Source: Odontesthes bonariensis (taxonomy: Eukaryota > Chordata > Actinopteri > Atheriniformes > Atherinopsidae). From it: DNA of 64,000 bases. Positions 24,301 through 33,300 of this stretch are shown in pieces; within the stretch, counting starts at the first letter, position 1, and each line of letters begins with the position of its first letter. The stretch lies in assembly GCF_027942865.1 (NCBI RefSeq), contig NC_134524.1, positions 3,231,036-3,295,035 on the forward strand. The letters run 5' to 3'. A model generated the notes under the pieces. It ran no database searches. It worked only from the letters and a program-made list of their open reading frames with translations, and had not been told where the DNA came from. A program made the translations under genes and the position numbers.

Positions 24301-27300
24301 TCAGGCCGGAGACATGAGGAGATCATCGTTCACAAACCCCGGCATGGACGAGTACGGCTCTCTGTCCGTTTCTGTTTCCGGCTCCACGTTGACGCGTTTG
24401 GGGGCGCTGGCGTCAGGGTCGGCGTCCTTGGAGGTCAGAGATGTCTTCTTTCCCTCCAGCCAGTACGTTACCATGTCTCCTTTTCCCTGGAGGAGACGAG
24501 ACGGACGTTACCGGGCGGCTCTGAGTAAAGGCGAACCGCGGCGGGTCGGGGGGGGGGCGACTCACCTTCACCTGCAGCATCCCTCGGCACTCCAGCACGT
24601 AGCCGCTGATCTCCTCCAGCAGGTAGAACACGCTGGAGCTGCACTGGATCTTCAGGGCTGCAAAGACAGCGAGGCGGCGGCGTAAAGAAGCACCCCAACA
24701 AATGTTTCATACATCTTAGTTTTCAGGGCGTTTGCTTGTGTTACCGACGCTTGTAGACTCCATCCTGGACGCAGTGTTGACCGTGTCTCCAAACAAACAG
24801 TAGCGAGGCATCTTCGTCCCCACGACTCCGGCCACCACCGGACCTGCAGGGCATCGGGAGGCGTTCAGAGACAACCAACAGAACATTTAGGTTTCCCAGC
24901 AGACTGGGTGCGTACCGGAGTGTATTCCTCCTCGTATCTGCAGCTGTGTGTTGGGTTTGTGGGGGATCCTGAAGGTTCGACAGACCCCCACCAGGTCCAG
25001 AGCCATGCTGGCGATCTCCGCGGCGTGGAGGATGCCGTTCTCGTGGGGAACGCCCGACACCACCATGTCTACAACAGTGTCAGACTGGTGAGGATGTGCA
25101 GGCACCACAGACTCTGAATCTGAATCAAATCATAGAAACTAAAAGGTGTTTCTCACAGGCGTCTCCGATGGTCTCCACCTTGTAGACGTCGTAGTTATCG
25201 ATGATGTCGTCGAACGTCGTGTAGAGCTTGTTGAGGAAGTCCACCACCTGGTAAGGAGTGCTGCTGCTGGACAGCTGGGTGAAGCCCACGATGTCGCTGT
25301 GTCGAGATAATCAAGCATTCTCATTTAATGACACTCATCGGCGTCAGCCGGGACAGACTAACAATCAAAAACTCTGATCCCCAGCTTCACTTCCTGTGAG
25401 TCTACCTGAAGAAGACAGTGGCGCTGACGTAGCTCTGAGCCTGTGATGGTTTCCCCTGACGCAGGTCATCAGCCACCTGCTTAGGAAGCATACCTGCACG
25501 AAAACACCTGGTTTTAGTTTCAACTCAAACTCTGAAGGAAGCTCGCTTCAGCCGCTCGTATTCACGACCTCCTTCTGTGGGTCTCTACCCAGATCTGTGC
25601 CCACAGGTGAGGGTTGGAGCAAAGGTGGAGCAGCAACCTGAAAGCTGCTCCTTCCGGATCAGCTCCCTCGTTTTTTTACATGTTCGACTTTTAAGAGTTT
25701 AAACTCTAAGCCTGAGAGGTGTGACGGAGAGAGTAATTCCACAGCTTAATTGTGCCTGAAACATGGTTTAAATGTGGAGTTAGAAAGGCTCTTATGGAGG
25801 TTTATCTCTTGAAGAGAACTGGTTTGAACTTAAGTTGCAGATCAGAAATAAAGATGACTGTATCATCTGCATAGAGACGAATCTTTCAGGCTGAATGTGA
25901 ATGATATAGATCCTTCTAAAACCTGTGGTAGTATGATGGGACTGGTGTGTGTTTTTGGGTTTCGTACTGTATAGCAGCCTGTCGGTTCTCTGTTTCTCGT
26001 GCATCAGATCCTGAGTGCGCTCGGCCACCAGAACCTCCAGATGTTTGCTGTATTTCTCCATCTGAAACAGGAAGAAGAGTTAGATGCAGCGTAGACCGGA
26101 CGAGCGTCTTCATCGATCACGTTATCAGGATGTGAATAATCTGGCGTGCACGCAGGGTTTAATTACCAGGTTCATCATCATGTCCACGGGACTGACTTTG
26201 ATGGGGTTGATGCGGTGAACAAACTTGTTGATTTGTTCAAAGGAGGGTCGGTGGGCGGGGTTATGCGAGCGACATCGCCGAATCAGCTGCCGAAAAACGG
26301 AGGGATCAATATGGTCATATCTCTCCGGCTGATGGATCGTGTTTCCACTTGTTCCCTGAAAAGAATCTGGTGATAAAAATGAAAATATGCTCTTCGTACT
26401 CACGTCTACGTAGTCAGCAGGACACGGACAGGTGCTGTCGGCTTTACTGGAGATCAGTTCAGGCAGAGGAGGACACCAGGCACACTCCAGGTTAGACTCT
26501 TCTGCCTCCGGGACAAAGCTTGTTTTACTTATTTGTCTTTCAGTAAAACAGGTTTTCATTAAAGCTCTTTTCTGAGGTCTGTTTGAGATGTTTGAAAGTT
26601 TTCCCACCTCAGATTTAAACCTAATATATGCTCTTTAGAACAGAAGAATGAGTGAACACTTTAATGAGTGAAGTTTGCTACAGAGGAGGATCCCGGCAGA
26701 CTTACTGGGACTGGGTCGCTGCGAGTGGCGACCTCCAGCAGGATGATAGAATAACTGGGAAGACACAATCACAGGTGACCAGCTGAAGCTTCACGATCAC
26801 TCGAACGGCCAAACAAACATGTTCAGATACGTTTTCCAGGGAAACGAAGTTAAATTAGGTTTATCGTAGTACCTGAACACATCTCCAGCCAGCGTCGGCT
26901 CCATGTTGGAGTTCTGAAACTCGGGCGGCATGTACACCTCCAGGAGCCTCTGCTGATAGGTGGACAGAGGCTCCGTCCCATCGTCCCTGCGGTATGACCT
27001 CAGGCCATAATCTGGCAGCAAAGACCACATCTCAGTCAAAAACTGTTTACGCTCCTGCCTCAGATTTAACACTCATTGTGTTGTTTTCAGTTATTCAGTT
27101 ATTTCTGTTATTGGGCACATCACCCGTTATTGTTCACATCACCTGTTATTGTGCACATCACCTGTTATTGTTCACATCACCTGTTATTGTTCACATCACC
27201 TGTTATTGTTCACATCACCTGTTATTGTGCACATCACCTGTTATTGTCCACATCACCTGTTATTGTTCACATCACCTGTTATTGTCCACATCACCTGTTA

Positions 27301-30300: not shown

Positions 30301-33300
30301 ACCTGTTATTGTTTACATCACCTGTTATTGTTCTCATCACCCGTTATTGTTTACATCACCTGTTATTGTTCTCATCACCTGTTATTGTTCCCATCACCTG
30401 TTATTGTTCACATCACCCGTTATTGTTCACATCACCTGTTATTGTTCACATCACCTGTTATTGTTTACATCACCTGTTATTGTTCACATCACCCGTTATT
30501 GTTTACATCACCTGTTATTGTTCACATCACCTGTTATTGTTTACATCACCTGTTATTGTTCACATCACCCGTTATTGTTTACATCACCTGTTATTGTTCT
30601 CATCACCTGTTATTGTTCCCATCACCTGTTATTGTTCACATCACCTGTTATTGTTCACATCACCCGTTATTGTTTACATCACCTGTTATTGTTCACATCA
30701 CCCGTTATTGTTTACATCACCTGTTATTGTTTACATCACCTGTTATTGTTCACATCACCCGTTATTGTTTACATCACCTGTTATTGTTCTCATCACCTGT
30801 TATTGTTCCCATCACCTGTTATTGTTCACATCACCCGTTATTGTTCAAATAACCCGTTATTGTTTACATCACCTGTTATTGTTCTCATCACCTGTTATTG
30901 TTCACATCACCTGTTATTGTTCACATCACCCGTTATTGTTCAAATAACCCGTTATTGTTTACATCACCTGTTATTGTTCTCATCACCTGTTATTGTTCAC
31001 ATCACCTGTTATTGTTCACATCACCTGTTATTGTTCACATCACCTGTTATTGTTCACATCACCTGTTATTGTTCACATCACCCGTTATTGTTCACATCAC
31101 CTGTTATTGTTCACATCACCTGTTATTGTTCACATCACCTGTTATTGTTCACATCACCTGTTATTGTTCACATCACCTGCACATGTTCACATCACCTGTT
31201 ATTGTGCACATCACCCGTTATTGTTCTCATCACCTGTTATTGTTCACATCACCTGTTATTGTTCACATCACCTGTTATTGTTCACATCACATGTTATTGT
31301 TCACATCACCTGTTATTGTTCACATCACCTGTTATTGTTAACATCACTTGTTATTGTTCACATCACCTGTTATTGTTCACATCACCTGTTATTGTTCACA
31401 TCACCTGTTATTGTTCACATCACCTGTTATTTTGCAGACCCAGCGGTCGTCTAAAACACAGTTCAGAGACTTGAGTCGGCCATGACAGATCCTGTGCTGG
31501 TGCAGGTACGACATCCCTCTGGCGATGTCTGTGGCAAACGAAAACCTGGCAGACAGGCGCAGCGTTTACTTTATGATGAGTCCAAACCATCATTACTGTG
31601 ACGAATACTCCTTCTAATTAATCGAACACTTCTAACACTCCTTCTAATTAATCGAACACTTCTAACACTCCTTCATCTAATCAATCGAACACTTCTAACA
31701 CTTATTCTTCTAATCAATCCAACACTCCTAACACTCCTTCTTCTAATCAATCCAACACTCCTAACACTCCTTCGTCTAATCAATCGAACACTTCTAACAC
31801 TTCTTCTTCTAATCAATCCAACACTCCTAACACTCCTTCTTCTAATTAATCGAACACTTCTAACACTCCTTCGTCTAATCAATCGAACACTTCTAACACT
31901 TATTCTTCTTCTAATCAATCCAACACTCCTAACACTCCTTCGTCTAATCAATCGAACACTTCTAACACTTCTTCTTCTAATCAATCCAACACTCCTAACA
32001 CTCCTTCTTCTAATCAATCGAACACTTCTAACACTTCTTCTTCCAATCAATCCGTCCTCCTGCTGTGTAATAAGAGTCTGTGGTTACCTGAAGCCCCAGT
32101 TCAGCGGGATCTCCTCGTTCAGAAGCACGTCGTTGAGGCTTCCCTTTGGGCAGTACTCTGTTACGATGGCAACGTTTGGCACCTCGACACAGCCACCGAT
32201 AAACTTACACAGGTTGGGGTGATCGAGCTCTCTGGGGAGGAAGAGGAAAATATGTTTGTGGTGTGTTGGGGTGTGTTGGGGCGTGAGGTGGGTGTGTTTG
32301 AATGTTTATTACCTGACTTGTTTTACTTCCTGTCTGATGGATTTGGACAAAGAAAAGGTTTTTGTTTGGATTCTCTTGATTGCCACAGTCCTGCCGTCAC
32401 TGCAAATGAAAAAGAATCCTTAAGATGTGCTGAAAGCAGGAGGTTTGTATGGCAGACAGGCAATAGAAAAGGTGGGCGCACTATATCCCGGTGCAGGTGA
32501 ACGGCGTCTTCCGGGTCCCTGGTTGTGCTGTACAGGAGCTGAACCCAGTCACACAGCTGGCGTTGCTGTTGCTGTTCCCCACCGGGACGCTCATTAAACT
32601 GCCCGTGGTCATACGAGCTTCCTGATCTGCAGAGGAGTAACAGAAACTTAAATACTCCTTCATGTTCTGATTGGTTTACATGACCCAGATCTAGATGTTT
32701 TGGATAGTTTGAAGTTTTATTTTCACAGAATTTAACCAGTTTTGATTAATTATCTTCAGGAGATATGTTCAGAGTTCATCTCCGTCGGACACATAACATC
32801 CAACCACATTACGTCACCTGTGGGGTCCCTCAGGGGTCTGTACTTGGCCCCATCCTTGTCATCATCTACCTTCTCCCTCTTGGCCGAGTCATCAGCCACC
32901 TTGGAATTTAATTCCCTCGATATGCTGATGACACACGGCTTTATGTCTAAACCACAGCTGCAGCTCCACCTTCATCATCATCATCCCTCCATGCCCTCAC
33001 CAGACCCGGTCATCATCCATGGTCACAACACCCCCCTCTCCTCATCACTCACCAACCTCAGGGAGAACATAGACCCCTACTTCACCATTAAATCCCCTCA
33101 GTAAGATCACCCTCCATCACCTTCTGTGACTTCGCCGAAAAGTCGGCCCACGCCTTTGTCTCCTCCAGATATTACAGCAACATATTAAACCCACTCCTCA
33201 CTCCCTTCATTGAGTTCCTGCCTCTGTCAGTATTGAATATCAGGTCTCCTTTATCACTCACCAGTTCATATATCAAACCTTCACGCCTTCACATTTCCAG

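Follow-up and report, generated by a model that had tools for sequence, protein, structure and literature searches.

How is the correct 5' splice site found when an intron opens with that site and then repeats it, in tandem, for almost its whole length? This question is raised by a receptor guanylate cyclase gene of Odontesthes bonariensis, which lies in a stretch of 64,000 nt (hereafter the window) taken from contig NC_134524.1 (forward strand, 3,231,036..3,295,035) of assembly GCF_027942865.1; this single assembly, of 945 Mb in 187 contigs, is the whole basis of the study. In intron 12 of the gene, the unit of a 19-bp minisatellite is, as an earlier note on this DNA had claimed, the exon-12/intron-12 junction itself; it consists of the last 8 exon bases followed by the first 11 intron bases. 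We consider it probable that the array is a junction-seeded minisatellite and mainly a tolerated, probably length-unstable passenger, which may cost the gene some output, and that the first donor is most likely still the one that is spliced. The features concerned are listed in Table 1.

Table 1. Features of the guanylate cyclase locus, in window coordinates; a slash marks the exon/intron boundary here and in the text.
Feature	Position	Strand	Description
Receptor guanylate cyclase gene	37776..24301	minus	hand-built model: 23 exons, 895 codons
Exon 12	31545..31424	minus	122 nt, ends AAAATAACAG; final 8 nt are part of the repeat
Authentic 5' splice site	31416..31426	minus	CAG/GTGATGTG (-3..+8); U1 duplex -9.2 kcal/mol
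19-bp minisatellite	31431..27105	minus	transcript unit GTGATGTGAACAATAACAG; 226 donor-register copies beyond the authentic site
Intron 12	31423..27012	minus	4,412 nt; minisatellite except the final 93 nt, where the array stops short of exon 13
Exon 13	27011..26873	minus	acceptor TTTGCTGCCAG/ATTATGG

The gene model was assembled by hand from three-frame translations and splice signals. Its frame is without internal stop, and the introns are GT-AG in 22 of 22 cases. Pfam recognizes Guanylate_cyc at residues 661-846 (E 2.8e-65) and a protein-kinase-like domain at residues 338-593, plus an HNOBA segment, and a 438-residue query found its best PDB-chain match in atrial natriuretic peptide receptor 1 (NPR1; E 4.7e-122), with guanylyl cyclase C second (E 4.3e-88). 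The first Pfam match starts at residue 329, within exon 9, and exons 1-8 are therefore supported by the open frame and splice signals alone. At the junction in question, the seam KIT/DYGL aligns gap-free with KITDYGL of NPR1, which fixes the authentic donor as CAG/GTGATG. A shifted exon-12 boundary is disfavoured at the protein level by the same alignment.

Tandem Repeats Finder (TRF) describes the array as 19 bp x 227.4 copies with 92% matches. The array had at first been taken to begin at the exon boundary, 31424; its edge lies at 31431, and it crosses the boundary at 31424/31423, covering the last 8 exon bases, AATAACAG, which code the end of a conserved K-I-T plus the first base of D. Since these repeated exon bases are constrained by the protein, coding for residues conserved in NPR1, the exon is presumably the source and the array the product. 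With the authentic site included there are 227 donor-register sites, spaced exactly 19 nt apart in 225 of the 226 intervals and 25 nt apart in one, so that the first estimate of about 225 tandem copies was close to the 226 found. The GT is kept in 223 of these 226 copies; 108 match the authentic site at every position of -3..+6, and 69 still do so over -8..+11.

The 227 sites fall into the classes CAG/GTGATG (109), CGG/GTGATG (69), CAT/GTGATG (27), CAG/GTGATA (8) and others (14). In a broader grouping, 118 sites read CAG/GT, 76 have G at -2 (mostly CGG/GT), 27 read CAT/GT, 3 read CAA/GT and 3 read CAG/TT, which contradicts the statement in the earlier note that only variants with ATG lose the CAG/GT context. 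The two most variable unit positions are -2 (76/227) and -1 (30/227). This variability resembles donor attenuation; the amplification in blocks of a few mutations could explain the same pattern. The array comprises 28 distinct unit sequences in a patterned order, within which multi-unit blocks recur; an 11-unit block, for example, is present at 73 and again at 165, and an 8-unit block at 184 and again at 192. Such recurrence, in blocks as large as 11 units, looks like a sign of block duplication, and would fit either exchange or slippage. On its plus strand the array is nearly stop-free (1, 2 and 1 stops in the three frames) and gives mechanical open reading frames (ORFs) of up to 1,317 aa, which are a by-product of the stop-free unit and no gene.

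Could the authentic donor be distinguished from its copies by strength? Donor strength is expressed here solely as the ViennaRNA energy of the duplex with an 11-nt U1 end. On this scale the authentic donor is tied fifth among the gene's 22 donors, the median of the other 21 being -6.8 kcal/mol. A U1 duplex at least as strong as the authentic one is formed by 99 of the 226 copies, and one at least matching the median by 191 (33 copies are very weak, above -3). The 108 twins are not separable from the authentic donor by site strength, and position must therefore select the latter, if the gene works. The long intron 12 is also GC-poor (guanine plus cytosine fraction 0.376) between GC-richer exons (0.516 and 0.583), which would favour exon definition. 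On both counts, the suggestion that the first donor is chosen by exon definition, which the earlier note had offered as one of two alternatives, gains support. In a zebrafish study, short GC-rich introns beside GC-poor exons are given as marks of intron definition, short zebrafish introns being normally lower in GC (PMC6047831). For the present array the two modes point to opposite ends: exon definition favours the upstream end, while intron definition favours the last copies.

Acceptors were not multiplied along with the donors. The pyrimidine fraction of the array units is 0.25-0.44, against 0.56-0.94 in the gene's real acceptors, and the units, lacking a pyrimidine tract, therefore multiply donors without usable acceptors. 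Recursive splicing, or the creation of new exons within the array, was rejected on the same ground.

The copying is confined to one junction. When 16-mers (8+8) across the donor and acceptor of all 22 introns were sought in their own introns with at most 2 mismatches, the intron-12 donor recurred in 221 copies, and 0 copies were obtained for the intron-12 acceptor and for both junctions of the other 21 introns. Intron 11 harbors a second array (33 bp x 13, 31611..32052), which starts about 35 nt inside the donor and for which this test gave no copies. The sequence CAGGTGATG occurs once outside the array in the window, both strands counted, and the exact 19-mer 0 times in the rest of the 64-kb window on either strand. 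An exact 29-mer taken from the array matches the 945-Mb assembly 40 times (such genome-wide counts of repeats being lower bounds) and the array of the window likewise 40 times, and this agreement points to a local origin, short of proving uniqueness. Two further readings were rejected. First, a general habit of local arrays is not indicated: among 11 array units examined on both strands, drawn from 11 of the 39 merged arrays of the window, the transcribed strand of this unit gives by far the best U1 match (-9.2, the next best being -6.7), and copying is not seen for the gene's other junctions. Second, a special RNA fold at the junction is not seen in 161 nt over the first copies, whose folding was no more stable than that of shuffled sequences (z 0.88, with 165 of 200 shuffles at least as stable).

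What would follow from the use of a copy can be predicted from the gene model. The 19-nt unit breaks the reading frame, and full-length protein would be obtained from 0 of the 226 copies. The first copy (+19) is predicted to cause a frameshift with a stop after 525 residues (in exon 15 by arithmetic on the gene model), and each of the other 225 to meet a stop within the array, which follows residue 459 in the cases listed, the prefix being common to all. The in-frame TGA that was said to lie past the true donor is therefore met on read-through and by 225 of the 226 copies; it does not account for the first copy, where the frameshift leads to the later stop. The claim that decoy use would truncate the protein inside the pseudokinase domain is borne out in either case, both stops lying within the Pfam kinase domain. 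A premature stop is thus predicted for 226 of 226 copies and lies in each case over 55 nt upstream of the final exon junction, the usual condition for nonsense-mediated decay (NMD).

The simplest history compatible with these observations starts from an ordinary short intron, with an ancestral intron 12 of roughly 110 nt. A segment made of AATAACAG and the first 11 intron bases would have been tandemly duplicated via slippage or unequal exchange, and further amplification would have led to the 227 donor-register sites whose unit structure is seen today; we infer both the age and the direction of this amplification from the sequence. Exon definition would act from the acceptor of exon 12 across to its first donor, which would thereby most likely be the one spliced, and surplus U1 on later copies would be discarded. 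The title of a 2012 paper by Hodson reportedly has surplus U1 on alternative sites purged at the E-to-A transition. A wrong choice of donor would add at least 19 nt and create a stop, and such transcripts would presumably be removed by NMD. The array could be tolerated as a passenger because exon definition probably selects the first donor. That correct splicing presumably dominates is suggested by the 895-codon open frame together with the alignment to NPR1 in the kinase-like and cyclase parts.

Several points weigh against this reading. The other 21 introns of the gene have a median length of 118 nt, 14 of them measuring at most 200 nt and 13 at most 124 nt. Introns of this size are associated with intron definition; the final copies of the array lie 112-169 nt from exon 13, a distance that would favour them. 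Use of the first donor is itself inferred from the open frame. Moreover, human IFI6, considered below, does use downstream repeat copies as donors (PMC4526556). Finally, copies +19, +38 and +57 are all identical to the authentic donor at -3..+6, and some leak to them is quite possible on this comparison. Leakage into the nearest copies is so likely that a passenger with some cost and an array acting as a rheostat would differ mainly in degree.

The latter alternative holds that the nearest copies act as poison donors, being partly spliced into NMD targets, with the array length or nearby variants setting the level of functional mRNA. We regard this as possible but rather unlikely. An exon of at most 300 nt would result from 9 copies, of which 7 do not differ from the authentic site at -3..+6, all copies give stops, and the use of two downstream repeats as donors in IFI6 (PMC4526556) is in line with it. 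However, if competition is limited to the first few copies, how far the array extends beyond them should have little influence, and nearby copies show no weakening. Selection weakening the copies nearest to the exon was rejected, the pattern being the opposite one: 21 of the first 25 sites are CAG/GT, and only 7 of the 227 rotations of the array reach 21, a comparison that is weak either way because the array units are not independent.

A different benefit would arise if the dense U1 sites aided the definition of exon 12 or blocked premature polyadenylation, the array being kept for such use, which we think unlikely. A U1 duplex of -7 or better is formed by 191 of the 226 copies, and the unit is by far the best U1 match among the 11 tested, on the transcribed strand. 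On that strand the array also contains AATAAC 219 times and AATAAA once, so that most units are one base from a poly(A) signal beside a U1 site. U1 bound downstream of a natural donor enhanced the splicing of PAH exon 11, and binding at such a position can strengthen exon definition (PMC5933811). On the other hand, the authentic donor is already fairly strong, and a match to U1 follows automatically from the junction seed; the copies may have a helpful role, and nothing here demands one. The functional proposals may also be taken together as a U1 platform or rheostat, in which copies load U1 and strengthen exon 12 or shield the transcript, NMD destroys mis-choices, and heritable array length tunes cyclase output. 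In this form, too, a function for the array is doubtful.

In a further alternative, intron definition would win, with a late copy used, exon 12 extended up to about 4.4 kb and little or no protein made. Five copies would give introns of at most 200 nt, and from the last donor-register site the intron would measure 112 nt, the shortest of these and near the gene's median. The open 895-codon frame and a cyclase part well aligned with NPR1 nonetheless imply recent function, and we hold this outcome to be very improbable. It is equally hard to believe that the copy number is an artefact of assembly. Long arrays can be misassembled, and an exact 1,689-bp duplication at the left end of the window could also be assembly-made; yet 28 distinct units in a patterned order do not resemble a looped consensus, and the overlap with the junction is independent of copy number. 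Least credible of all is the titration of U1 small nuclear ribonucleoprotein by decoy donors, which the earlier note had raised in view of the hundreds of sites per transcript and which finds no support here, since few nuclear RNAs are as abundant as U1, at about a million per cell, and nascent transcripts of one gene are unlikely to exhaust it.

The array is another case of the junction-seeded repeats known from amphioxus, chicken and human IFI6. The amphioxus examples, called mirages, were reportedly first described by Canestro et al. in 2002. In Adh3 and the globin genes BflGb6 and BflGb9 they are minisatellite-like tandem duplications of exon-intron boundaries, which are length-unstable and reported to leave regular splicing undisturbed (PMC3087553). 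The present array, crossing its own boundary at 31424/31423, is likewise a tandemly duplicated exon-intron boundary; its 19-bp unit falls inside the 10-72 bp range of Adh3 units, and many, not all, mirage copies carry AG/GT (PMC3087553), as GT is kept in nearly all copies here. It differs in scale and in being limited to the donor side, BflGb6 having 3 or 6 units of 150-160 bp (PMC3087553) against 227 donor-register sites here. The duplicated multi-unit blocks within the array hint at a length instability like that of mirages.

In 'exon stuttering', described on the dot chromosomes of chicken, copies of an exon margin together with the neighbouring donor or acceptor are spread through the intron; the copying is strictly local and could give rise to alternative transcripts (PMC12954441). 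The phenomenon was described for 236 introns in 115 genes, 190 of these introns on dot chromosomes, with 1-44 copies (median 4) and great variability between alleles; the screen needed matches of 20 or more nt, and the exon parts measured 20-187 bp (median 36) (PMC12954441). Here, too, part of an exon and the adjacent splice site are copied locally, as the 221 junction 16-mers in intron 12 attest. However, only 8 exonic nt are involved, below the 20 of that screen, and there are 226 copies as compared with 1-44 (PMC12954441). The criteria of the chicken screen would probably have missed the present array.

A minisatellite supplying multiple splice donors is reportedly named in the title of a 1995 paper by Turri et al. 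on human IFI6 (6-16), whose repeat consists of 12-nt units giving in-frame isoforms. Two downstream repeats of this donor-bearing minisatellite are used (PMC4526556). The likeness is that the repeat carries donor sites, the copies here matching the donor by sequence; the difference is that IFI6 is a human interferon-induced gene, whereas the 19-nt unit here breaks the frame and stops follow from all 226 copies. By analogy, the IFI6 donor minisatellite may serve as a functional precedent for the present array. Rogers in 1989 and Zhuo et al. in 2007 are said to have proposed that introns are born from tandem arrays or from the duplication of AG-GT proto-splice sites. Such models share with our case the tandem duplication of a sequence bearing AG/GT, but here an existing intron is enlarged, no new intron arises and the units have no acceptor quality. 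Among fish, the growth hormone genes of Sparidae (sea bream) contain intronic minisatellites that are length-polymorphic between individuals (PMC3045353); these, too, are minisatellites in an intron of a working gene, and the accessible part of that report does not mention a splice junction within the repeat (PMC3045353). A minisatellite of C. elegans has been linked to alternative splicing, copied donors likewise going unmentioned in the accessible part of the source (PMC4039745). Fish-directed literature searches returned no junction-spanning array in the titles and abstract openings of open-licence PMC papers.

The surroundings of the gene are rich in repeats. After merging by hand, the TRF arrays form 39 intervals that together occupy 27,603 of the 64,000 bases of the window, or about 43%; among them is a 23-bp x 413 array at 45582..55036. 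Telomere-like repeats flank and enter the cyclase gene: TTAGGG x24 lies at 23719..24296, just beyond the stop codon at 24301, and CCCTAA x41 at 34637..35717, in intron 5 and in the opposite orientation. At the left end of the window, starting at its edge, an exact duplication of at least 1,689 bp (1..1689 and 2457..4145, offset 2,456) carries a 27-bp x 20 array in both copies and is either a recent duplication or an assembly artefact. The window also holds an uninterrupted non-LTR (lacking long terminal repeats) retrotransposon ORF of 1,021 aa with endonuclease and reverse transcriptase (39869..42934), and, on the minus strand, an 821-aa ORF with a RING finger (13956..16421), which we take to be TOPORS-like.

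In summary, work on how one of several identical donors is chosen has usually relied on two or three engineered copies, and this intron of O. bonariensis presents a natural 227-way donor contest, in which 109 sites are identical at -3..+6 and nearly all are evenly spaced. The correct donor stands at one end of the array and the favourites of intron definition at the other, an arrangement that separates exon from intron definition. Length alleles in nature, should there be any, would reveal the cost of surplus donors. With this array, junction-seeded repeats, which have been named in amphioxus and chicken, become known from one more genome, at a copy number above the 1-44 of the chicken screen.

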